Numbered from the stretch's first letter, positions 1-14,380 are shown. The stretch: DNA of 21,353 bases from a virus (IMGVR_UViG_3300010392_000027:1-21353), one strand, 5' to 3'. Made by a program: numbers and translations. The notes: a model not told the origin generated them from the sequence alone.

Positions 1-1396
1 CTAGAACTACATCACATAATTGTGATAATTCAGGGTCAATAAGAGGGAAGATTTTATTATTTAAAAAGTTTTCCCAGTGATTAATTAATGGTCTAATACC
101 AGTATCTCTTGCAGCAGTAAGTTTCCATTCATTGTTTGCTTCAGATAAACCTTGTTGGTTAGTACCACGAGATAAGTGGGTAAACCCTGGCAATTCATCA
201 GGAGACATGTTAAATGCAGACAAGATATTTCTAGTAGTTTGGTCAAATAAGTACTCAAACTCACCATCTTTCTTTTGTGCTACAGTCGAAACCCACTCAA
301 CATTATCTTCTTTAGATACACCAAAGATAGGTACTCTAAACGAGTTTTCAACATTATTAATAGATGCATTAAATTGTTGTTTAACATCATCAATTACAGC
401 TTGGTCGATTTCATCAGACTGAATTACAAGCATACCTTTAGCGGCTCTACCGTTTTGGAAGTAAAGCTTATTGTAAACTTCAATAGATGTGTGAGTCGTT
501 ACAGCATTAATCACTGTATCTAATGGAGTTACTGGAAAACCATTGTGCTCAACATCGGTTGATGGATACATATCGTAAACAACCAATTCTTCTGGGGTAA
601 AAGCTTGTCTAGGGAAACCTTCAACAACTTGTACCCAATCGTATTTATCTTTCTTAAGAATATCAGTGTCAATCTTAACACCTGTCATATCTTCAATCAA
701 CCTAATTGAACTAGCTCTAACTGGCTCAGCAGCTTCACCTTCTTTAATAGAAGGGTAAATTGTACCAGCATCAACAGGTCTAAATCTATGAAATTCTTTA
801 TTTTCATCGTCAGAGTAAATAATCTCTGTCGCAAACCTACCAAAAGACAGACCGTTCCGAGTTTGAACGTCCATAAATTCTGGAAGGGTTGTTTTTTCTT
901 TTTCTTCAAGGTCTTCTGTATAACCACAATTAATTAAGATTTTCAATGTACGGTCAATTCTTTCTTGAATTTTAACCATTTGTTCTGGCTCAATTACTTG
1001 CTTAAATTCTTCTTTTAATACTAAGTCAATACCAAGGTCGTGTCTGTCTTTTTGGATATGTCCAAACATCGACATTGAGTTACCACGAGCACGAAGAATC
1101 GCAGCAACAAGTAGATTACCTACTCTAATTTGCTTAATTACACTATCTGGTAATAACTTTCTTTTAATCTTATAAATACCAGCATAGTGGTCTTTATGAA
1201 GTGGGTTTTCAGTAAGTGCTAATCTTGGAACTTTACGGTTCTTATTAGCAGACCCCATAGCGTGTTTAATCAGTTCGGAAACATGATTACCACCAGCAGC
1301 CATAGTATTCTTCAGAATTGCTTCATTAAACTCAGCTTGCTTGTCTTGGATATTATCAACTATAATACCCTTCTTTTCTTTAGTATCATCACTCAT
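1..1396 (-). CDS. Portal protein (partial, C-terminus beyond left edge)
   Basis: Forms the dodecameric ring at the capsid vertex through which DNA is packaged and ejected. My reverse-strand translation is open for 465 codons to the window edge. It begins MSDDTKEKKGIIVDN, with an AGGAT ribosome site overlapping the stop of the upstream gene. Portal-type features include an N-terminal helical region with RARGNSMSMFG near residue 105, a central region with FMDVQTRNGLSFGRFATEI near 165-185, and the late segment LSEANNEWKLTAARDTGIRP near residue 430, which matches the portal clip/stem region of SPP1- and HK97-like families. The gene follows the duplicated-domain structural gene (8-base gap) and lies in the same transcriptional direction as TerL, the usual packaging-gene order. 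The family call rests on motif memory, not a search. The missing C-terminus lies left of base 1. Confidence 0.85.
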   Translation of the reverse strand, partial: MSDDTKEKKGIIVDNIQDKQAEFNEAILKNTMAAGGNHVSELIKHAMGSANKNRKVPRLALTENPLHKDHYAGIYKIKRKLLPDSVIKQIRVGNLLVAAILRARGNSMSMFGHIQKDRHDLGIDLVLKEEFKQVIEPEQMVKIQERIDRTLKILINCGYTEDLEEKEKTTLPEFMDVQTRNGLSFGRFATEIIYSDDENKEFHRFRPVDAGTIYPSIKEGEAAEPVRASSIRLIEDMTGVKIDTDILKKDKYDWVQVVEGFPRQAFTPEELVVYDMYPSTDVEHNGFPVTPLDTVINAVTTHTSIEVYNKLYFQNGRAAKGMLVIQSDEIDQAVIDDVKQQFNASINNVENSFRVPIFGVSKEDNVEWVSTVAQKKDGEFEYLFDQTTRNILSAFNMSPDELPGFTHLSRGTNQQGLSEANNEWKLTAARDTGIRPLINHWENFLNNKIFPLIDPELSQLCDVVL

Positions 1397-1404
1397 AGTT
1401 TATC

Positions 1405-2352
1405 CTATTCAGCCGTAACGTAGAATACAGAAGCTTCATCGGAAGATTCATTAGTAATCGAGGCTTGGTATGCTTCTCCACTTTTCATGAAGAGACCTTT
1501 TTTAAGTTCTGTACCAGCTCTCAATTGAGATATTTCTCCTACTTTTACGCCATCAATATTAATAGATAGGGTCTTATCTGCTTCTACATATATAAATTGT
1601 TTTGAATTGTTATAAATTTTCAATTGAGTGTTTACAGCAGTTTCTTCTGGGAGACTCTTAATACTGTAAATTTCAATATAATCAGGGTTTACATCAGTAA
1701 TTTCGTAAGTCCCTAAAGTAACCGAAGAGAAGCCAGAACCTAGTTCTACTTTATCTCCAATTTGTACTCCGTCAGCAGAAAAGATTTGTAATACTTCAGC
1801 AAAAGAAGTACCCAACACAATTGGACCTTCAGCTTGTCCAGCTTCATTTTCTACTTGAAAACTAGTAGCTGTTACAGCCAATAGTTTGTATTTACCTTGG
1901 TTAGCTTCATTAAAGCCTTCACCAATTCTAACTTCATCACCAACTTGAGCACCACCAACAATCAAGTCTAAAGCAGTACCACCTGTTGAAGCAAACGTCA
2001 AAAGAGGACCGTTTTTCGTTACAGTCACTTCAGTAGTAGCGTCAGCACCAGTAGCTCTTGCAGCTCTAAAATCTGGGGCAGTACCACCATTATGACTTAT
2101 TTTATATGTGTTTGAAGTTCCAGCCTTCAAAGCAATATCGTATGTAGTTGTTCCATCGTCAGAAATACTAATTAAACCAGAAAAAAGCTCTAAAGTCTGT
2201 CCAGCTTGTAATTTCACTGATTTAGACTCAGGTTCGTTTAAATCAACGCCTTGCTCATCTAATGTCCATTTAACATTATTCATAGTAGGGTTATTTGTAG
2301 GGTTTTTATCTTCGTAAATGGATAGATGGGTTAGTAGGTTCATTTTAGACAT
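1405..2352 (-). CDS. Virion structural protein with tandemly duplicated beta domain
   Basis: A 315-residue protein rich in Gly, Thr, Val and Ser, probably mostly beta strand, with no membrane segment or enzyme motif. Two consecutive units, residues about 115-175 and 176-238, are recognisably related: both start GP, carry VGDEVRIGEGF or IGDKVELGSGF, then GKYKLLAV or GTYEITDV, and end in a strand near QVENE or IEIYS. The C-terminus (about 245-315) looks like a third beta module. It sits between TerL and portal and has its own promoter of the class seen before other structural operons, which argues for a late virion component such as a decoration, vertex or fibre-like protein. The start is supported by GGAG eight bases upstream of ATG. 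The exact role is not recognised. Confidence 0.75.
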   Translation of the reverse strand: MSKMNLLTHLSIYEDKNPTNNPTMNNVKWTLDEQGVDLNEPESKSVKLQAGQTLELFSGLISISDDGTTTYDIALKAGTSNTYKISHNGGTAPDFRAARATGADATTEVTVTKNGPLLTFASTGGTALDLIVGGAQVGDEVRIGEGFNEANQGKYKLLAVTATSFQVENEAGQAEGPIVLGTSFAEVLQIFSADGVQIGDKVELGSGFSSVTLGTYEITDVNPDYIEIYSIKSLPEETAVNTQLKIYNNSKQFIYVEADKTLSINIDGVKVGEISQLRAGTELKKGLFMKSGEAYQASITNESSDEASVFYVTAE

Positions 2353-2439: not shown

Positions 2440-4311
2440 TCACCATAAAATCTTCTTTTTGCTAGTTCTTTTCGCAGGGGTCTTAGGTGAATTAGGTGCT
2501 AAGTGCCCGATTGTCTGCTTCATAAGGTCTGCATTTACGTTTTTGGCGACAGCAGCTAGGTCTTGAGCGTTATTTACGAGCTTTTTCTGCTTATCCTGAC
2601 TAGCGTTTCCAGCTACTCCAAAGGCAGGTTTAGCACCCTTAGAGAATAGGTTCTGAAATGGATATCTAAGTCCGTCCATATGGTCAGAAACACCGTCTTT
2701 ATCGTGATATGGCTTACCTTCAATAATTTCACCTTTACCATCAGTAGCCCAGCGATACTCACCAAAAGCATCAATCATTGTTTTATTATTAGGTGCATCA
2801 ATAACGTAAAATCTACGCACATTTAGTGAATCTACAATTTTACCTTGTAATGCTGAAATACCAGCAGCTACATCTTTGGTAAATTTTGGACATTTCATGC
2901 CAGCTTTTCTTTTCAGTGTTTTAAGATAAGAAGGGTAGTTTTGGTCAACATACCACTTATCGACATACCACATATCTTGAAGTTCTTTACCATATTTGGC
3001 AATATCATCAATTTCAAGACCTTGCATAGCAAAATTATCCATCATCCAGACTTCACCACCTGGAAGTAAGGCAAGTACTGGTAATACGGTAAAATCGGTA
3101 AAACCCCAATCCCCTCCACCAATAAATGTGATACCTAAATCTATTAAATATTGTCTTAAGTTGTTTAAATCACAAGGAGTATCTAGTCCAGATATCTTTT
3201 CCCAAGCATCCTGAACAGATAGTACGTTTTTCACCTCATCGAATCTAGGATAAACTAGACCACTTGAAGACGGTTTATTACACAATAGCTGTGCATTAGC
3301 CATATCTGGTTCAATTTGTCTAAAATTGTTCAAAGTAGCTGATAGTTTCTTAAATAGACCACCAACATCCTCTTGGTCCCTATCAACTAAGTAATTTCTC
3401 ATTACTGGCAATAGTGGGTGGTCTGCAATTCCAGCATATGCTTCTAATCTCTCATATTTATGTTTCTTTTCATCGGGCAGTATTTTCCACTCATCTTCCA
3501 ATAAATTTTCCATAGGAAGGTCTGTAGAAATATACCTGATTTGTCTTGGTTCGTCAACTTTAGCCACATCATGTGGAATACGCTCAGTTACATCTAAAAT
3601 ATTCCATCTAAGAATCTCACCACCAGCTTGGATAGTCTGTTTTAGTGTTTTCTCCATCAATCCACCAGCAAACTTACGAGTAGAGAGATAGACCGTTAAT
3701 GGAAAATAGTCTCCAAATGTGGAGGGAATCATCTTCGCTTCTTTTAAAGCACGAGGGTCTTGAACAACGTCAACCTCATCAATAAAAAGCATAGGAACGT
3801 GCTCCGAGTTAGCACCAGCGATTGTGGCGATAACGATACGAATATAAACTTCTTGAAGCTCATCAGTAAGCCAAGCTACCATTTTCTTGTTATCTGATGA
3901 CTGTTTCCAGCCATTCGCTTCCAAATAAGGTCTTAATTTACGAAAAAATGATGTAACATATTGAATTGCTTTATCTGATTGTGAAGAAATCGCAGCCATG
4001 TGAGCTACAGAAATACGAAAATGCAGCATACAAAGGATTTCCAATGCTGCTGCTCCTAGAGTTTTGAATGAGTCACGAGATGCTAACATACAAGCTTGAG
4101 GAACGTGTTCGTTTTCCCCAGTTTTCATTAGCTCATAAATACGCCACATCGCCTCTACTGGACCATGAGTAGATGTTGGGTAAACAGTACCCTTTGGAAA
4201 ATATAAGTCCAAATAAACATGCATCCAATCTCTCAACTCCTCAGCAGAATTTAGAGGGGTTAAGAGATAATCACATTTATGTTGAAATTCTTGGTCTGTT
4301 TCTTGTTGCAT
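2440..4311 (-). CDS. terL: Terminase large subunit (DNA-packaging ATPase and nuclease)
   Basis: Motor that cuts concatemeric DNA and pumps it into the prohead through the portal. In 623 residues both expected domains are visible. The N-terminal ATPase has a divergent Walker A, ASRDSFKT (77-84, Lys83), Walker B MLFIDEVD (174-181) and a coupling-type motif LSTRKFAGG (209-217). The C-terminal RNase H-like nuclease has Asp401 in GGGDWGF, Asp456 in YVDQNYPS, and Asp543/Asp546 in VSDHMDGLRY. The tail after about residue 555 is Lys/Ala/Pro rich and probably flexible. ATG at 4311 overlaps the preceding stop as TAATG, so translation is coupled to the coiled-coil gene and, through it, to the chaperonin. 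The length is normal for the family, although the Walker A lacks the usual glycine pattern. Confidence 0.93.
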   Translation of the reverse strand: MQQETDQEFQHKCDYLLTPLNSAEELRDWMHVYLDLYFPKGTVYPTSTHGPVEAMWRIYELMKTGENEHVPQACMLASRDSFKTLGAAALEILCMLHFRISVAHMAAISSQSDKAIQYVTSFFRKLRPYLEANGWKQSSDNKKMVAWLTDELQEVYIRIVIATIAGANSEHVPMLFIDEVDVVQDPRALKEAKMIPSTFGDYFPLTVYLSTRKFAGGLMEKTLKQTIQAGGEILRWNILDVTERIPHDVAKVDEPRQIRYISTDLPMENLLEDEWKILPDEKKHKYERLEAYAGIADHPLLPVMRNYLVDRDQEDVGGLFKKLSATLNNFRQIEPDMANAQLLCNKPSSSGLVYPRFDEVKNVLSVQDAWEKISGLDTPCDLNNLRQYLIDLGITFIGGGDWGFTDFTVLPVLALLPGGEVWMMDNFAMQGLEIDDIAKYGKELQDMWYVDKWYVDQNYPSYLKTLKRKAGMKCPKFTKDVAAGISALQGKIVDSLNVRRFYVIDAPNNKTMIDAFGEYRWATDGKGEIIEGKPYHDKDGVSDHMDGLRYPFQNLFSKGAKPAFGVAGNASQDKQKKLVNNAQDLAAVAKNVNADLMKQTIGHLAPNSPKTPAKRTSKKKILW

Positions 4312-4826
4312 TACGCCTTTTTAAGCCCCAAAAATCCCAATAGTTTCTTCACTAAGTAAGAAAATTTAGGGATTCTGTAATACTTTGTTTGTTGGTCAAT
4401 ATTAACCTGTAATAGCTTAGTAGTTACTTCATTTAAAAGAGTAACTCTGCTATCCAAAGTTTTTGTAATTCTTGAAAAACCTCTGATTTCTTGCTCAAAG
4501 TGCTCCACCATTCTCTTATTTTTAAGCTCTCTTTCTTCAATACCTTGAACTCTTGGGGCTACGGTTCTAACAGCCATCATCATTCTATTGACCTTTTCTG
4601 TAAGAGACTCGATAGTTTCTGGCTTCTTAGTAGGGGCTGGTAAAATTTCTTTTAGAGCTAATGTAGCTGTTTTGACATTAATACCAAGGTCTTTAGCATA
4701 TGCTTCAGCAGCATCTTTAATGATGTTTGCTTCAATTTTTTGCTGTTCTTCCCAATCAATCTTGTCTAGTCTTACTTTAGCAATTTTAGTTTTTAATTCT
4801 TCAATTCTTTGTTCTGCTGCACCCAT
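4311..4826 (-). CDS. Coiled-coil protein between chaperonin and TerL, unknown
   Basis: 171 residues, strongly helical and charged. Residues 1-35 (MGAAEQRIEELKTKIAKVRL onward) and about 70-140 have heptad-like patterns, and the C-terminus is basic with a short hydrophobic run (SYLVKKLLGFLGLKKA) that could be an amphipathic helix. The gene is joined to both neighbours by four-base stop/start overlaps, with GAGAGGG as ribosome site. Its position just before terL makes a terminase small subunit conceivable. I see no convincing helix-turn-helix, although residues 38-62 are a weak possibility. A cofactor or substrate of the upstream chaperonin is another reading. No family was recognised. Confidence 0.75.
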   Translation of the reverse strand: MGAAEQRIEELKTKIAKVRLDKIDWEEQQKIEANIIKDAAEAYAKDLGINVKTATLALKEILPAPTKKPETIESLTEKVNRMMMAVRTVAPRVQGIEERELKNKRMVEHFEQEIRGFSRITKTLDSRVTLLNEVTTKLLQVNIDQQTKYYRIPKFSYLVKKLLGFLGLKKA

Positions 4827-6592
4827 TATGCCCTCTCATTTGCTTCATTAACGAAATTATTTGCATTATCTAGTGTTCTTTGGAAATCTCTTTCAGTTTT
4901 AGCCTCAGCACGTTCCAGCTCACCATCTCTTGGAAAAGCCACGATACCACCTAAAGTACCCATAACTGATGATATTGATACGGCATTTACTAGAGCTTGT
5001 TTTACTGCCAAAGCAGCATCGAAGATACCTAGTTTTTTAGGGTCTCCAAACTTAGCATTTTCAATATCATAGACCTTTTTAGGGTCAGTAATCATCATAT
5101 TTAGCACTTCTTCCATTTCATCTTCATTATATCCAGCATTATTTAGCAGTCTATAAAAAGGAGCAAACAAAGAAGGTACAATTACTTGTTGAACAATCTC
5201 ATCTTCAGTTTCGTTTAATTTTAAACCAAGATTAACTAGGACACGACAACCACCTGGCAAGCAGCCGTGGTTAATTGACGCTCTAACAGCACAAACAGCA
5301 TCTTCAGCCCTATCAGCCTTTTCTTTAAGTTCACCAGTAGATGACCCATAAAGCTTAAGCTGAGCAATACCGCTAGTTAGTTTACCAAGTCTTTCTTCCA
5401 GAAGAATCTTCTCGATTTTAGACTCGGATTGTTCCATTTGAGTTTTAATCTCATCAGCTCTAACTTCAATATTTGTTTCGTCAGGATTACCAACAATAGT
5501 GGTTCTAAACCTGTAAATTTCAATTTTTTCAACACCCTCACCCCAATCATCTTCAGTAAATTCATCCAAAGGATTCTGCATATCGAAGATTTTAGCTCCA
5601 GTAAAAGCAGATAAGTCCATTAGAAAATGAAGCTCACTATTAGCAAGTTGTGAAAAAGGAGCCTTTAAAGGCACGATATTAATAGTTCCAGGGTTTGGAA
5701 AGTTAAATGATAAAATATTTAGAACTTGTTCTGAGAATCCATGTGCCACAATTACGACATTTTTGAACTCTGAACGCCCTTCAACATACGCTCCACCAAT
5801 CGCTTGAAGCATTCCATTTACTTGGGCATAGTCATTAATCTTACCGTCAAATAGGATAAATAGTGGTTTTTCAAGCACACATCTTTGGTTAGCTTGGTCA
5901 TTAACGAATGCAGGGTGGAATTTACCGATAGATTCCTCATATCCCTTATCAATTGGAAAACCTTCCACTAGACTTACATCATATTTACCACTAGGTCCAG
6001 ATAATTCTTGGATTGTAACGTGAGAAGATGATGAAAATCCTGTAATTTCAAAAGCTTCCATAACAGACTTAGCCATATCAGTATCACCATTGGCAGATAC
6101 GGTAGCTACTTTCTCTAACAATCCCTTGTTTTTGCCATTAATTTTAATAGCAGAACCTTCAATAAAAGGAACCATAGTGTCTGTCATATGCTTATTGATA
6201 ATTCTAGCCACTTTTTGTGGGCTAACTTTTTTATTATCTTTACAGAATCCAAATAGATTTTTAATTAGAGCTGAAGCAATAATTGTCGCAGTAGTTGTTC
6301 CATCCCCAGCTTCATTAACTGTACGAACAGCAACGTCACGAATTTGTTCAATGATTAGGTGCTCATATGCATTTTCTGAACCTAAAGCTCTAAAGATTGA
6401 TACGCCATCTTTTGTATTTTTATTAGGAATACCAGCCAAATCTGACTCGATAATGATATTTCTACCGTGTGGACCTAAAGATTTGCCAACAATACCTGCC
6501 ACTCTATCGACAGTATTAACAATAATAGGCTCTAACTTATCTAAATCACTAGTAAACATCTTCGATGGGGTCTTAACCTTGCGAACACTCAT
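4826..6592 (-). CDS. groEL-like: Phage-encoded GroEL-type (group I) chaperonin
   Basis: ATP-driven ring chaperonin that probably folds phage virion or packaging proteins. The equatorial ATP-site signatures are intact: SLGPHGRN (38-45), TKDGVSIFRAL with Asp62 (E. coli Asp52 equivalent), EAGDGTTTATIIA with Asp97 (Asp87 equivalent), and RAEDAVCAVRASINHGCLPG with Asp431 (Asp398 equivalent). The segment EERLGKLTSGIAQLKLYG (399-416) matches the conserved return into the equatorial domain. At 588 residues it is about 40 longer than bacterial GroEL. The apical region (about 190-395) is divergent and holds the extra length. The C-terminus ends NEANERA without the Gly-Gly-Met tail. No groES-like gene is in the window, so it may use the host co-chaperonin or none. 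Start: ATG with AAGGAG five bases upstream. Confidence 0.92.
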   Translation of the reverse strand: MSVRKVKTPSKMFTSDLDKLEPIIVNTVDRVAGIVGKSLGPHGRNIIIESDLAGIPNKNTKDGVSIFRALGSENAYEHLIIEQIRDVAVRTVNEAGDGTTTATIIASALIKNLFGFCKDNKKVSPQKVARIINKHMTDTMVPFIEGSAIKINGKNKGLLEKVATVSANGDTDMAKSVMEAFEITGFSSSSHVTIQELSGPSGKYDVSLVEGFPIDKGYEESIGKFHPAFVNDQANQRCVLEKPLFILFDGKINDYAQVNGMLQAIGGAYVEGRSEFKNVVIVAHGFSEQVLNILSFNFPNPGTINIVPLKAPFSQLANSELHFLMDLSAFTGAKIFDMQNPLDEFTEDDWGEGVEKIEIYRFRTTIVGNPDETNIEVRADEIKTQMEQSESKIEKILLEERLGKLTSGIAQLKLYGSSTGELKEKADRAEDAVCAVRASINHGCLPGGCRVLVNLGLKLNETEDEIVQQVIVPSLFAPFYRLLNNAGYNEDEMEEVLNMMITDPKKVYDIENAKFGDPKKLGIFDAALAVKQALVNAVSISSVMGTLGGIVAFPRDGELERAEAKTERDFQRTLDNANNFVNEANERA

Positions 6593-7727: not shown

Positions 7728-7904
7728 TTTTTCATCTAGCTCAGCATCTTTCTTATCAAAATGCTCTTTACATCGGTCATTGCCTTGTAAGCCATCTTCT
7801 CTTTTAAAAGGGTTGTCACCATAGGGACCAAAACTATGAAGTTCCTCGTGCTTATGGGCTTTATATTTAGGACAATCGCAGCATTTCCAATCTTCTTTAC
7901 TCAT
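7713..7904 (-). CDS. Small Cys/His-rich protein, possible zinc binder (63 aa)
   Basis: Last gene of the minus-strand accessory operon. I choose ATG at 7904 (MSKEDWKCCDCPKYKAHKHE) because GGAG sits six bases before it, within the end of the phosphoesterase gene; the two coding regions overlap by eight bases. The N-terminal CCDC cluster with following His residues (KAHKHEELH) and a later Cys-His pair (RCKEH) could bind a metal. The C-terminus is an acidic helix. Family and function are not recognised. It converges on the plus-strand microprotein with overlapping 3' ends and no visible terminator between them. Confidence 0.65.
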   Translation of the reverse strand: MSKEDWKCCDCPKYKAHKHEELHSFGPYGDNPFKREDGLQGNDRCKEHFDKKDAELDEKLAQQ

Positions 7905-8643
7905 AGTCATCTCCATTAGATTCAGCTTTTTTGAGCTTTTCTAGGTCAAATCTGAAAGTTTTACTTAAATATGGTACATATCTTAGCGTTAAAGAACAAG
8001 TATTGCAGAAGGTAATCTTCTCGGTATGGTGAAAAAATACACCTCTATCTTCATGAATATGTCCAGCAACGTGTAGAAATGGCTTAACTTCTTCTAATTT
8101 TTCAAGTAAATCCTCACAACCAACATGGTCATCTCCACTCATAAAACCACTATATGTTCTATCTCCATACATATAGGCTGGTCCATGAGTAACTACAATA
8201 TCAGCATCTTTTGGTATTTTATCCCAATGAGCTTTAATCGCACTTCCACGATTTCTGTTCCAAGCCCAGTTATATCCAAATGTTGGCGATACTGGTGAAC
8301 CCCAAATCTTAATAATATTACCTTCATTGTCCCAAACATCACAAGAATCATCATTTAAGATAATAATATCGTGAATAGCACATAATTTTTTGAAATATTC
8401 AGGAACGCCTTGGTAGCATTGTTCTTTTCTGTCTGGGTCAGTACCTTTATCGTGGTTACCAGCGATTAAAATTCTCCATTGATGAGGTTTTGAACCAAAC
8501 CAATCTAGGAAGTCTTCAATCTCGTGCTTTTGTCCTGTATTTGAGAAGTCTCCAGCATGAATAAGAATATCACCTTCTGGTACATCAATTTCCCTATGCC
8601 GACCGTGAGTGTCTGAAATTGTAACAATATGAGTTTTAGCCAT
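7897..8643 (-). CDS. Metallophosphoesterase (calcineurin-like, MPPED type)
   Basis: Predicted di-metal phosphodiesterase or phosphatase of 248 residues. All canonical motifs are present in order: SDTHG (Asp11, His13), GDFS (Asp32), GNHD (Asn63, His64), THGP (His153) and GHIHE (His195, His197). Spacing and the WGSPVSPTFGYNWAWNR segment (114-130) resemble the class III MPPED/239FB branch, whose members cleave 2',3'-cyclic nucleotides in vitro; the phage substrate is unknown. ATG overlaps the AAA+ stop as TAATG, so synthesis is coupled to the ATPase. Roles in nucleotide or RNA-end metabolism, or in removing cyclic-nucleotide defence signals, are inference only. Confidence 0.88.
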   Translation of the reverse strand: MAKTHIVTISDTHGRHREIDVPEGDILIHAGDFSNTGQKHEIEDFLDWFGSKPHQWRILIAGNHDKGTDPDRKEQCYQGVPEYFKKLCAIHDIIILNDDSCDVWDNEGNIIKIWGSPVSPTFGYNWAWNRNRGSAIKAHWDKIPKDADIVVTHGPAYMYGDRTYSGFMSGDDHVGCEDLLEKLEEVKPFLHVAGHIHEDRGVFFHHTEKITFCNTCSLTLRYVPYLSKTFRFDLEKLKKAESNGDDYE

Positions 8644-9650
8644 TATCCTAGTCCTAATCTACCTTTTGGTTTTTTAGCGAATGCTTCTTTAAATCTTTTC
8701 TTGTGTTCTACTAATTGTTTTACAGCATCTAATACGGAAATATCATCCAGCATAGACCTTACCACGGATTCTTGTAGGTGAGCAATAGAAAATTCATTTT
8801 TAGCCGATAACTCAGCAGCTTCATTAAGACCTTTTTCAGCCTTAATCCTATCTTTGTCACCAATGATAAACTCTAACAATTCACCACACTCTTTAGCATT
8901 TGGAGTTTTCATTTCGATAACTTTATCGAAACACCCTGGTCTGTCGATTAATGCACCCACAGAACGCTCAGGATTGTTTGTAGTGGCGATAATGAAGGTA
9001 GGTATACCTTTGAATGGGTTACCAACTCCATCGAGGAAATTAAGCAATGAGGAGTTAATACCCTTGGAAGAATAGTCGTCCTCAGAAGTTCCACCCTCAA
9101 TATCTTCAATAATTAAAATTAATCTTTTTACATCTTTGTGAAATTTAGACCTACTTAAGAAAAACTTATTTACACTACTAGCTCTAATTTCAGAAGTATC
9201 CCAAATAACAGCAGCCGTTCCGTCATCTTTTAACGATGATTTAATCACATCATTTATTGATGCGGTTTTCCCAACACCTGGAGGTGAGCACAATAATATT
9301 GCACGTTTAGGGTCTCTTTTTAGTTTCTTATAAACGTCAAGTTTATTAAAAAACCTATCTCTTTCGTTTAAAATCATAGTAGTATTGTCAATAGTTTTAA
9401 GTAAATTATACTCTCTAAGCTCAAACTTCTCTAAAATAACACCAATACTAGTATCGGTCATAGAGAAACAACCAGATTTAATTATAAATTTCTTTCTTTC
9501 ACGTTCTTTTTCGTTGTACTCCATCTGGATAATATGGGTATTTGACTGAATAGTAAGGTCAGATTCGGGTATTTCTTTAGTGCCGCCAGCTATTAAGTCT
9601 TCTATAGGAGTTACTTTGATTACTTTAAATTTACCAGTTTCATCGCTCAT
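8643..9650 (-). CDS. AAA+ ATPase
   Basis: 335 residues with one classical AAA module. Walker A is CSPPGVGKT (121-129), Walker B LILIIEDIE (177-185), and sensor 1 IATTNN (221-226), followed by DRPGCFD (236-242) with Arg237 where BCS1/FtsH-like proteins have their RPGR-type arginine. The N-terminal about 90 residues form an accessory domain with many charged residues and no membrane segment. The architecture suggests a substrate-remodelling hexamer rather than a replication clamp loader or helicase. GGAGG eight bases upstream supports the ATG. It is flanked in a coupled operon by an unknown 88-residue protein and the metallophosphoesterase. Target unknown. Confidence 0.85.
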   Translation of the reverse strand: MSDETGKFKVIKVTPIEDLIAGGTKEIPESDLTIQSNTHIIQMEYNEKERERKKFIIKSGCFSMTDTSIGVILEKFELREYNLLKTIDNTTMILNERDRFFNKLDVYKKLKRDPKRAILLCSPPGVGKTASINDVIKSSLKDDGTAAVIWDTSEIRASSVNKFFLSRSKFHKDVKRLILIIEDIEGGTSEDDYSSKGINSSLLNFLDGVGNPFKGIPTFIIATTNNPERSVGALIDRPGCFDKVIEMKTPNAKECGELLEFIIGDKDRIKAEKGLNEAAELSAKNEFSIAHLQESVVRSMLDDISVLDAVKQLVEHKKRFKEAFAKKPKGRLGLG

Positions 9651-10421: not shown

Positions 10422-11804
10422 TTATAGTTGTCCTGAGATGTTCTCAAGTAACACGTTCTTTCTTGGCTGCTTAACCGCAAGACATAAGAATCTGAAGTGT
10501 GCTTCAGGTAAGCTTAAGTCGTTGATAGCAAGTTTTAGCTTACTATAAGCAGACAATTGGTGAAGACCCATTGTATTTGACTGAAGTAGGAATCCAGTAA
10601 TTGAGCCAGGCTCTCTGTTTCCAAGGTCAGTAAAAGTAGTAGTAGCAGCACCGCTATCAGCAACTCTACCGATAAACTTTGCAGTCGCAGCAGAACCACC
10701 ATCTTCAGAACGATATACGTTATGGTATTTCGCTCCACCAGCAGGTGTGATAACAATTTGTCCAGAGTCACCAGCAGAAACCGTTACAGCTTCATCGGCA
10801 GACTTAACAGACTCGCCTCTTTCGTTTACTGATGTTACATAGTAAACATAGTCTCCAGCTTCAAGAACAGAAGCAGCATTTACTGGTGAAGTACCAGCCA
10901 ATGTTGGAGCAGCAATAGCTCCAGCTCTAGCTCTTGCAGGTCTAGTTTTTCCAGATAGGAAACGTGATGCTTCCATAGAAACTAGAGCAGAAGAAGTCCA
11001 TTGTGTACGAAGGTTCGCACCTGAAGCTTCTTGAGCAGAACCAGCAAGCATGATTCTTTCTTTTGCGTGAGCAATCTTGTTATATTGACTCAAAGAAATT
11101 GGGTCAAGTAAAAGCTTGTCAGCAGAACCGTGTTGCATTGCAGACTTAACAGCAGCATCTTCAATGAAGGACTGTGTAAGCGTACCGTTTACGGATACAA
11201 TAACCGATTGGTCAGAACCGTACTCAGCAAACATTAAGTCTTGAGTATTTGAAAGAGCATCAGACTCACGAATTTGAGCGTCAACCCCTCTCATGTTAGG
11301 GATAGCAGCAGAAGCCAATGGGTTACCATCGAATACACCTGCGTTTGAGAAATCAGAAGCTCCTCTAAAAGAGTCAAACTCGATATCTCCAGCTAGTTTC
11401 ATAGCAGCGTCATCAGAGGCTCTATCTTCGGCTTTTTTACCATCGAAAGCACCAATCATGTTAGCGGCTACAGTTACACGTCTTACAGTAGAGTAATATG
11501 CCATTGGCACGATTGCTCTTGCGAAATTAGACGTATCTTCTTCACCAATTCCACCTTCCATTTGGGCAGAACCACCGAATACACCGTAGTCTAATTGTCT
11601 GTTGAATTGAATCAACGTGGATTTTGCATCTTCGATGCGTAACATTTTTTGTAGTTTGATGTGTGAGTCATCAAAAGTTACATTTTCCATCACAGGAGAT
11701 AAGTCTTCTACCTGTAATGCCGAACCTTGGACTAGTGACTCTGGTGCAGCGTTGTACTGACCTGCTTCAAGAGCTTTCATCAAGTCATTTAATTGTTCAA
11801 CCAT
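10422..11804 (-). CDS. Major capsid protein with inserted Ig/FN3-like domain
   Basis: 460 residues, probably the HK97-fold shell protein. It sits directly after the scaffold gene, has an excellent GGAGG ribosome site and is followed by a strong terminator, all as expected for the most abundant late product. The segment about 75-120 (EEDTSNFARAIVPMAYYSTV then RRVTVAANMIG) resembles the E-loop/N-arm region of phage capsid proteins. Residues about 296-398 look like a fibronectin-III/Ig-type insertion: EAGDYVYYVTSVNERGES, then YHNVYRSEDGG and TTTFTDLG. Such domains are commonly displayed on capsid surfaces. The N-terminal 40 residues (with ALQVED and PVMEN) could be a propeptide removed by the prohead protease. 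Remote homology was judged by eye only. Confidence 0.85.
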   Translation of the reverse strand: MVEQLNDLMKALEAGQYNAAPESLVQGSALQVEDLSPVMENVTFDDSHIKLQKMLRIEDAKSTLIQFNRQLDYGVFGGSAQMEGGIGEEDTSNFARAIVPMAYYSTVRRVTVAANMIGAFDGKKAEDRASDDAAMKLAGDIEFDSFRGASDFSNAGVFDGNPLASAAIPNMRGVDAQIRESDALSNTQDLMFAEYGSDQSVIVSVNGTLTQSFIEDAAVKSAMQHGSADKLLLDPISLSQYNKIAHAKERIMLAGSAQEASGANLRTQWTSSALVSMEASRFLSGKTRPARARAGAIAAPTLAGTSPVNAASVLEAGDYVYYVTSVNERGESVKSADEAVTVSAGDSGQIVITPAGGAKYHNVYRSEDGGSAATAKFIGRVADSGAATTTFTDLGNREPGSITGFLLQSNTMGLHQLSAYSKLKLAINDLSLPEAHFRFLCLAVKQPRKNVLLENISGQL

Positions 11805-12938: not shown

Positions 12939-13159
12939 AATTTTCCTCCAATTATTTTGTTACTAGTAACCATTTATTTGGTTGTTTTTCATTCCGTATA
13001 ATATAAATGATTAGTATTCTGTATATTAATTAAATAATATCATATACTTACAAGCCGTTTTTCTCCCAACTTATTTTGTCAATTCCAATACTTACGGTAA
13101 ATTAAGCATAAATAACAATCTTTAATACAAACACGGTCTTCAATTTGGGATATATTTCA
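12939..13159. promoter_or_regulatory. Divergent control region between capsid and protease operons
   Basis: About 220 bases, very AT-rich, with no gene. It contains a perfect 12-base palindrome GTTACTAGTAAC (12959-12970) in the capsid-operon leader, a possible operator. It also holds an AT-rich stretch with TATTAT-like sequences facing the capsid genes, a weak plus-strand TTGTCA (13076-13081) with TAAATT (13098-13103), and the late-type element at 13114-13127 facing the protease. No copy of that late element faces the capsid operon. Confidence 0.5.
13114..13127 (+). promoter_or_regulatory. Candidate late promoter element, copy 2
   Basis: AACAATCTTTAATA, the best representative of the four related elements, lies 32 bases upstream of the protease ATG at 13160. 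Confidence 0.6.
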
Positions 13160-14380
13160 ATGTCTAAAAACATAAAAAACGGCACATTTATTCATGGTAT
13201 AGCAGCATCAGAACATATTGATAGTTCAGGTGAGCGTATCCTTATAAAAGGTGTAGATATTACAAGCCTTACTAAGGATGGTGTTTTTAATTTCGAGCAC
13301 CAATCAAAGGAAGCTGGGCATATTGTAGGTAAAATCCTAGAAGCCAAGAAAATCCTTAAGAAAGAGGACTGTGAAAATGAAGCTCATAAATATTTTTGGA
13401 ACAAAGTTAAAATGCCGTTTGTCTATGTGGCAGGTGAATTGTTTGACCAAGTTGGTCATGGTTCGGCTCAAGATGTGGCAGCTATGCTACGCTATGACAA
13501 GGGACTCAATAAAGACGAGACAAAAGCTCTTGTTAATTTTTCAATTGAAGGCTCTAGGCTTGGTAGGGAAGGTTCTAATATTACAAAGTGTATTGCTAGA
13601 AAAGTTTCAATCACCATAACCCCTTGTAATAAGATGGCTCATGCCGAACATATGGAGGCTCCATCCAAAGATACTAAGAAATCTGGTGGAATCGACATTT
13701 CCAAGGAAATCCTATCTAAATTCAAGAAAAGTGAAGGTACTGAAATCGAAATGATTAAGGCTGAAGGTAAATACTACACTAATCTTTATAATAAGAAAAC
13801 AAGTAAATTCAATCAAGAGAAAAATCCTAAAAGTAAGGCTAATTATAAGCCTCAAACTCCTAGTTCAATGGAGCCTAAAAAACCTGCTTCACCACTTCCA
13901 AAGCCTAAAAGAGAGTTTTCTCAAACTAGTGCTCCTGATAAATTGAGGGTAGGTGATAGAATTAAGCACAAAAACAAAGGTAAAGCTAGAACTGGACATG
14001 ACATATATAATGACCCAAAAACTTGGGAGAAGTCCGAAAAGAAAACTACCGAAAAGATGAAAATCGACCTTAAGAAGAAAAAGAAGAAAAAGAACTTCTA
14101 TACTTCTAATGTTAGAAAAGCTATCACAGCCAGTATTGGTGTTGGTGCTCCTAGCACAAGAACAGGTGGAGCCGCCCTTCAAAAAGAATCTCTTTGTAAG
14201 AAAAAAGTATATAAAAATCTTTCAGAGGAAGCTTGGAAAAACTACCCAAATAAGACTGAACTAGTTGAATTTATTAGTGAAAAAGAACCAAATATGACTA
14301 AATCGGAAGTTCTAGCCGTTGCTAAGACCTATTCCTACCTTGAACAACTCAAAACTGAAAAGAAATTGGAAGACCTGTGA
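13160..14380 (+). CDS. Prohead protease (XkdF-like serine protease) with long C-terminal tail
   Basis: 406 residues from the ATG at 13160; a TTG at 13145 in frame is less likely because GGGA lies between the two. Residues 1-165 match the XkdF/HK97-type prohead protease pattern: GIAASEHIDSSGERI, then FNFEHQ with probable catalytic His47, HIVGKILEAKKI, and VNFSIEG with probable nucleophile Ser128. The enzyme would cut scaffold and capsid N-termini during maturation. The tail is unusual: a Lys/Pro-rich linker (about 170-315) with hydrophobic-x-Lys-Ser/Ala-Glu motifs at FKKSE (188-192), MIKAE (198-202), WEKSE (289-293) and MTKSE (379-383), and a helical C-terminus with GAPSTRTGGAAL. These may be self-processing sites. 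It diverges from the capsid operon and overlaps the Nudix gene. Confidence 0.82.
   Translation: MSKNIKNGTFIHGIAASEHIDSSGERILIKGVDITSLTKDGVFNFEHQSKEAGHIVGKILEAKKILKKEDCENEAHKYFWNKVKMPFVYVAGELFDQVGHGSAQDVAAMLRYDKGLNKDETKALVNFSIEGSRLGREGSNITKCIARKVSITITPCNKMAHAEHMEAPSKDTKKSGGIDISKEILSKFKKSEGTEIEMIKAEGKYYTNLYNKKTSKFNQEKNPKSKANYKPQTPSSMEPKKPASPLPKPKREFSQTSAPDKLRVGDRIKHKNKGKARTGHDIYNDPKTWEKSEKKTTEKMKIDLKKKKKKKNFYTSNVRKAITASIGVGAPSTRTGGAALQKESLCKKKVYKNLSEEAWKNYPNKTELVEFISEKEPNMTKSEVLAVAKTYSYLEQLKTEKKLEDL

Follow-up and report, generated by a model that had tools for sequence, protein, structure and literature searches.

A lineage-wide group I-like phage chaperonin encoded beside terL and its probable late structural clients

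The chaperonin encoded in the viral DNA analysed here (the window, an entire IMG/VR record of 21,353 bases that is itself a genome fragment) is best explained as a lineage-wide phage group I-like chaperonin for late structural proteins, most likely the capsid protein, without a recognisable lid of its own. We give this reading a probability of roughly two in three. The evidence comes from the chaperonin itself, from the co-chaperonin searches and from the position of its gene in related phages.

A group I-like chaperonin in the head module

The chaperonin matches PHROG 5725 'chaperonin groEL' over residues 18-553 (E 2.4e-90), scores 120.2 bits against the Cpn60_TCP1 domain PF00118 (Pfam cut-off 34.3) and is matched by bacterial GroEL structures at E 1e-55. 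When 41 non-identical family members were aligned with E. coli GroEL, Asp62, Asp97 and Asp431, corresponding to GroEL Asp52, Asp87 and Asp398, were invariant in 41/41, as was the P-loop Thr100 (GroEL Thr90). Homology and alignment hence confirm the initial annotation of a group I chaperonin with these three catalytic residues and, judged by its sequence, the protein is a complete group I chaperonin with homology far beyond chance. It reaches 254 bits on the canonical GroEL equivalog TIGR02348 (NCBIfam), below the cut-off of 582 bits, and only 20-42 bits on the group II NCBIfam models; it is closer to GroEL (168 bits) than to the chaperonin of phage EL (70 bits). Identity to E. coli GroEL is 26-29% across the domains. 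The apical region had been described as enlarged and divergent, which is overstated because it is only ~14 residues longer than that of GroEL (main inserts of +6 and +7 residues) and, at 29% identity, no more divergent than the equatorial domain at 26%.

An AlphaFold2 model of the chaperonin, built with 34 relatives and reaching a pLDDT of 84.9, can be superposed on GroEL over 513 residues (3.5 Å) and predicts equatorial, intermediate and apical domains without a built-in lid. Among the 50 matches listed the predicted fold is closest to GroEL/mtHsp60 (Z ~35 over 513 residues). The list contains one group III chain and otherwise no EL or group II structure, an absence to which no weight is given. 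The helical apical protrusion of group II chaperonins and thermosomes is absent from both the alignment and the model.

IMG/VR scans returned 50 and then 80 loci of the lineage, which consists of mostly uncultured tailed phages akin to Myxococcus phage Mx1, with larger records of 120-177 kb. On a tree the window family forms a separate clade (support 100/99), and the joins of this family to PBS1/AH12 are flagged as a long-branch effect. A relative at 44% identity, from an uncultured phage, already carries a GroEL annotation. We take the family as a new clade of a chaperonin kind already known from the named PHROG, from Mx1 and from a soil viral group. In two relatives (L201:6063-7600 and L261:2600-4000) an in-frame intein-like insertion of ~310 residues lies exactly at the GDGTTT ATP-binding loop of the chaperonin; it begins with a non-Cys residue and ends in THN-T, and truncated copies occur in L043 and L051.

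Table 1. Features of the window (coordinates counted from its first base).
Feature	Coordinates	Strand	Remarks
Portal protein	2..1396	-	Cut by the window end
ORF of 315 aa (orf315)	1405..2352	-	Conserved; almost all relatives have it between terL and portal
terL, terminase large subunit, 623 aa	2440..4311	-	PHROGs E 2.5e-10
Coil ORF, 171 aa	4311..4826	-	Predicted long coiled coil, basic C terminus
Group I-like phage chaperonin, 588 aa	4826..6592	-	ATG start, AAGGAG just upstream
DNA of the chaperonin C-terminal tail	4829..4924	-	~residues 557-588
Calcineurin-like phosphoesterase	7897..8643	-	1-nt overlap with AAA gene
AAA ATPase	8643..9650	-	In the subclade of the window, mostly upstream of the chaperonin
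Major capsid protein (MCP)	10422..11804	-	PHROG 752, E 3.9e-36; 3.8 kb upstream of the chaperonin
Head maturation protease	13145..14380	+	N-terminal part matches PHROG 1028, E 1.5e-9

The genes of the head module follow the order MCP, AAA ATPase, phosphoesterase, chaperonin, terL, orf315 and portal (Table 1), and the head module in general is the setting of the chaperonin in most loci. The identity of terL is backed by its PHROGs match, by the TerL of Mx1 (33% identity) and by the adjoining portal gene. The TAATG overlaps initially reported from the chaperonin through the coil ORF to terL are present at both junctions, each reading TA-A-TG with the central A common to the two genes. A scan for sigma-70 promoters around the chaperonin gave fewer matches than shuffled sequences and is uninformative.

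Two of the neighbouring genes show features of their own. The MCP carries an inserted domain at about residues 295-401 which resembles an Ig-like decoration domain and has a match in PHROG 19622, an esterase/lipase by annotation (E 1.9e-12). The AAA ATPase, whose synteny with the chaperonin is a feature of the window's subclade, is weakly similar to CDC48/proteasome-activating ATPases and might be a second protein-remodelling factor.

Ring contacts, C-terminal tail and co-chaperonin

Positions R452, E461, S463 and V464 of GroEL, those mutated in the single-ring variant SR1, read Tyr, Asn, Asp and Glu in the window chaperonin. Throughout the aligned family V464 is replaced by Glu (41/41), E434 is missing in 40/41 and R452, E461 and S463 are mostly changed, a pattern which suggests that ring stacking is altered or absent.

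The C terminus differs from that of GroEL as well. Indeed, the Gly-Gly-Met tail is missing, as had been noted at the outset, and a predicted helix (residues 557-575) is followed by a terminal NEANERA, residues 576-588 being modelled with low confidence. The ending NEA[ND]xR was found in 66 of the 73 relatives checked and is carried also by some relatives whose chaperonin lies away from terL. As a possible common tag, NEANxR was looked for among the ORFs from six large relatives and was present only at chaperonin C termini. Since GGM-rich tails are important to how GroEL functions (PMC11978752), the conserved tail that replaces them is probably functional.

Co-chaperonin genes were sought in relatives of the window, whose own genome is known only as a 21-kb fragment, and no groES-like gene was recognisable: PF00166 (Cpn10) had no match in 20 related virus records of at least 120 kb, including complete Mx1, whereas it did match in the three bacterial bins searched alongside. 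Nothing above noise came from a six-frame search of six large records with the Cpn10 HMM, or from phmmer run with six divergent GroES-like proteins of phages, T4 gp31 among them; control phage GroES proteins were recovered. With hhalign, the best of 173 conserved small-ORF clusters reached a probability of 4%, compared to 26-63% for the crAss, elemo30 and MaF61 controls. T4 gp31 is weak as a control (E 4 against the Cpn10 profile, 0.8% in hhalign); a gp31-like lid would escape detection, and a very divergent lid is possible since gp31 itself escaped these searches. Small ORFs were also inspected by eye as GroES candidates and rejected: those flanking the Mx1 chaperonin appear to encode winged-helix-like and zinc-ribbon-like proteins, while those between chaperonin and terL are mostly predicted coils or homing-endonuclease-like, none of them resembling GroES.

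The use of a host GroES by the window chaperonin would be possible, because part of the GroES/substrate groove is retained (equivalents of Tyr199, Phe204, Leu237 and Leu259). Several residues linked to the GroEL-GroES interaction are changed (Y203A, V263A/S and V264F, with R197 and E386 lost). The chaperonins of EL and AR9 need no co-chaperonin for their function and remain open (PMC7185714, PMC9598537) and, by analogy with them, a lidless open ring is the likeliest mode of action here.

Among known systems, the nearest cultured relative is the GroEL-like protein WNM70305.1 of Mx1 (40% identity), a phage in which no GroES was found and which is the sole isolate found with a related TerL; however, its chaperonin gene (167113-168885 of the Mx1 record) lies on the opposite strand, ~6.3 kb from terL, and its product has no NEAN tail. 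With EL gp146, OBP gp246 and AR9 gp228 the window protein shares phage origin and PHROG 5725; in published assays these phage chaperonins needed no co-chaperonin, a property which the window protein may have by analogy (PMC7185714, PMC9598537). The EL protein also lacks a GGM tail and has altered ring contacts, but at 23% identity it is much more distant in sequence and its gene, like that of the PBS1 relative, is not beside terL. The likeness to E. coli GroEL covers the ATPase residues, the domain order and the predicted fold; the differences are the low identity, the tail, the ring contacts and, in relatives of the window, the lack of a partner groES. Flavobacterium, Cellulophaga and crAss-like phages have chaperonins too, but they encode GroES and their GroEL itself is not coupled to terL. 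In separate cases a co-chaperonin gene lies at the terminase: crAss cr111_1 has a GroES-like/10 kDa chaperonin gene near terL (L069:8816-9226), and elemoF has a gene with a GroES annotation next to terL (L070:267-809). Finally, Wu et al. 2021 (PMC8390657) report a divergent set of group I chaperonins from soil viruses, with transcripts and metaproteome peptides detected; this set is likened to the window family by description and not by sequence.

Position beside terL in related phages

Chaperonin-based and terL-based IMG/VR scans together gave 92 non-identical terL loci, 83 of them with enough upstream sequence, in a sample that favours the window's kin because it was seeded with the window's own proteins. 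The chaperonin lies upstream of terL on the same strand in 71 of these 83 loci. The gap between the two genes is at most 9 nt in 28 of the 71, eight of which have a 1-nt overlap; in the others the interval holds a poorly conserved coil ORF, a homing-endonuclease-like ORF (as in L010, L036 and L039) or another small ORF. Such a placement was seen in none of 14 other inspected records with chaperonin matches, one of which is evidently a bacterial contig. Hence the adjacency of chaperonin and terL, initially judged unusual, is real, conserved and specific to this clade. No description of this synteny or of the NEANxR tail was found in the open-licence literature. Two entries with GroEL matches in the phage collection resemble contigs of bacterial chromosomes: CAKLQH020000021.1 (L074, 'Acinetobacter phage MD-2021a'), which carries glpD, pckG, dgkA and a host groSL, and AGRM01000005.1, which is 501 kb long and bears the name of a Salmonella strain.

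The adjacency is not universal. Nine of the 11 non-adjacent records tested (G015-G025) keep a chaperonin elsewhere, and the remaining two are fragments (41 and 13 kb); the displaced genes lie 0.3-18 kb from terL in either orientation. Basal relatives including Mx1, and at least two nested branches, retain the chaperonin at a distance from terL. When adjacency was labelled on a chaperonin tree of 43 rows, three changes were counted, as would fit one gain followed by two separations.

The coil ORF of the window is matched by comparable small helical ORFs at terL in some relatives and is missing or replaced in most. As a candidate terminase small subunit it matched no PHROG, and nothing in Pfam above the cut-off; its model is all-helical with low pTM. 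The coil ORFs (that of the window, L003:4423-4872, L014:11758-12183, L018:5935-6207, L019:11764-11985, L031 and L037) differ greatly in sequence. The last residues of several are basic and aromatic (LPWYKKL or FYQKVLNK, for example) and may form a tail that binds a membrane or a partner.

In many relatives intein-like insertions interrupt terL, at several different sites (L143, L163, L166, L167, L171, L172, L176, L178, L024, L048 and L049), in L143:9758-11300 at the Walker A-like RDSYK-T and in others near positions 158-168. Four contigs with the same chaperonin and terL/portal set (L203, L204, L205 and L206) come from MAG bins labelled Deltaproteobacteria (two), Saprospiraceae and Saccharibacteria. 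Together with Mx1 these bins hint at hosts among the Myxococcota or Bacteroidota, the binning of phage contigs being unreliable.

Probable clients of the chaperonin

The initial annotation took the coupling to terL, instead of to a groES or capsid gene, as a sign that TerL, the portal or another packaging component is the client. As evidence for a TerL client, however, the overlap carries little weight, because relatives separate the chaperonin from terL and because one-base overlaps are common in the window, where they occur at 5 of 18 same-strand junctions. Mx1 and the G015-G025 records are such relatives, with an uncoupled chaperonin placed elsewhere, an arrangement which the initial annotation had itself named as refuting its reading, and the two separations nested inside the adjacent clade count equally against coupling as a pointer to the client, as does the absence or replacement of the coil ORF in most relatives. 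The contrast drawn with a capsid gene does not hold either: the MCP gene lies on the same strand (Table 1), so capsid genes are not set apart from the chaperonin.

Among phage proteins the classic client of GroEL is the capsid protein, as for T4 gp23, folded with gp31, and for the lambda head proteins; the role of T4 gp31 is also given in its database annotation. Under the preferred reading, a chaperonin for late structural proteins, the gene would be expressed together with the late head and packaging genes and its product would assemble into an ATPase ring of seven subunits that is probably single or readily comes apart. As with the chaperonins of EL and AR9, late phage proteins that are not in their native state would be bound in the open cavity of this ring; alternatively, the ring might borrow the host's GroES. 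The main client would, by precedent, most probably be the MCP, with TerL and portal as possible clients to which nothing points specially. The position beside terL would be an inherited gene order, probably balancing late expression, and not a label for the client.

A chaperonin dedicated to packaging, whose coupling matches its level to that of a TerL or portal client, appears distinctly unlikely to us. The persistence of the adjacency, often with a 1-nt overlap or a gap of few nucleotides, would fit it, as would the fact that terL and portal remain together downstream, and so lasting an adjacency could reflect a functional tie to packaging. Against this, overlaps are common in the window, the adjacency is absent in basal lineages and was lost at least twice inside the clade with the chaperonin kept, capsid and protease genes are neighbours as well, and known systems need no coupling of chaperonin and client. 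Further specialisation, in which the helix and NEANxR tail at the cavity floor dock a phage client or partner in an open cycle without GroES, and in which a dependence of TerL or portal assembly keeps the pairing with terL, must be regarded as improbable.

Two other explanations, both doubtful, leave packaging aside. The protein could be an ordinary GroEL substitute which uses the host GroES as lid and raises the folding capacity of the infected cell; its closeness to GroEL in bits, the partly kept hydrophobic groove and the presence of GroES in the bacterial bins that hold such phage contigs would agree with this, but the GroES-linked residues differ and several unrelated GroEL-carrying phages have groES beside or near the gene whereas none is recognisable in the window lineage. 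Alternatively, the chaperonin could serve mainly another late protein, for tail or lysis, and have come to neighbour terL through the history of gene order only. Endolysin was indeed the in vitro test substrate for the EL and AR9 chaperonins (PMC9598537), and the chaperonin gene of Vibrio phage pv27 sits between those of tail sheath and tail tube; in most relatives of the window, however, the neighbours are head genes.

A more general caution is that translational overlap is poor evidence for the client of a chaperone. The window lineage represents a coherent and probably common clade of phage chaperonins in which the gene is universal but mobile, the ring contacts are changed, the tail is conserved but not of the GGM type and no GroES can be recognised. 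Since Mx1, an old laboratory phage of Myxococcus xanthus, belongs to this lineage, the client, the ring state and the dependence on a lid can be tested in culture.
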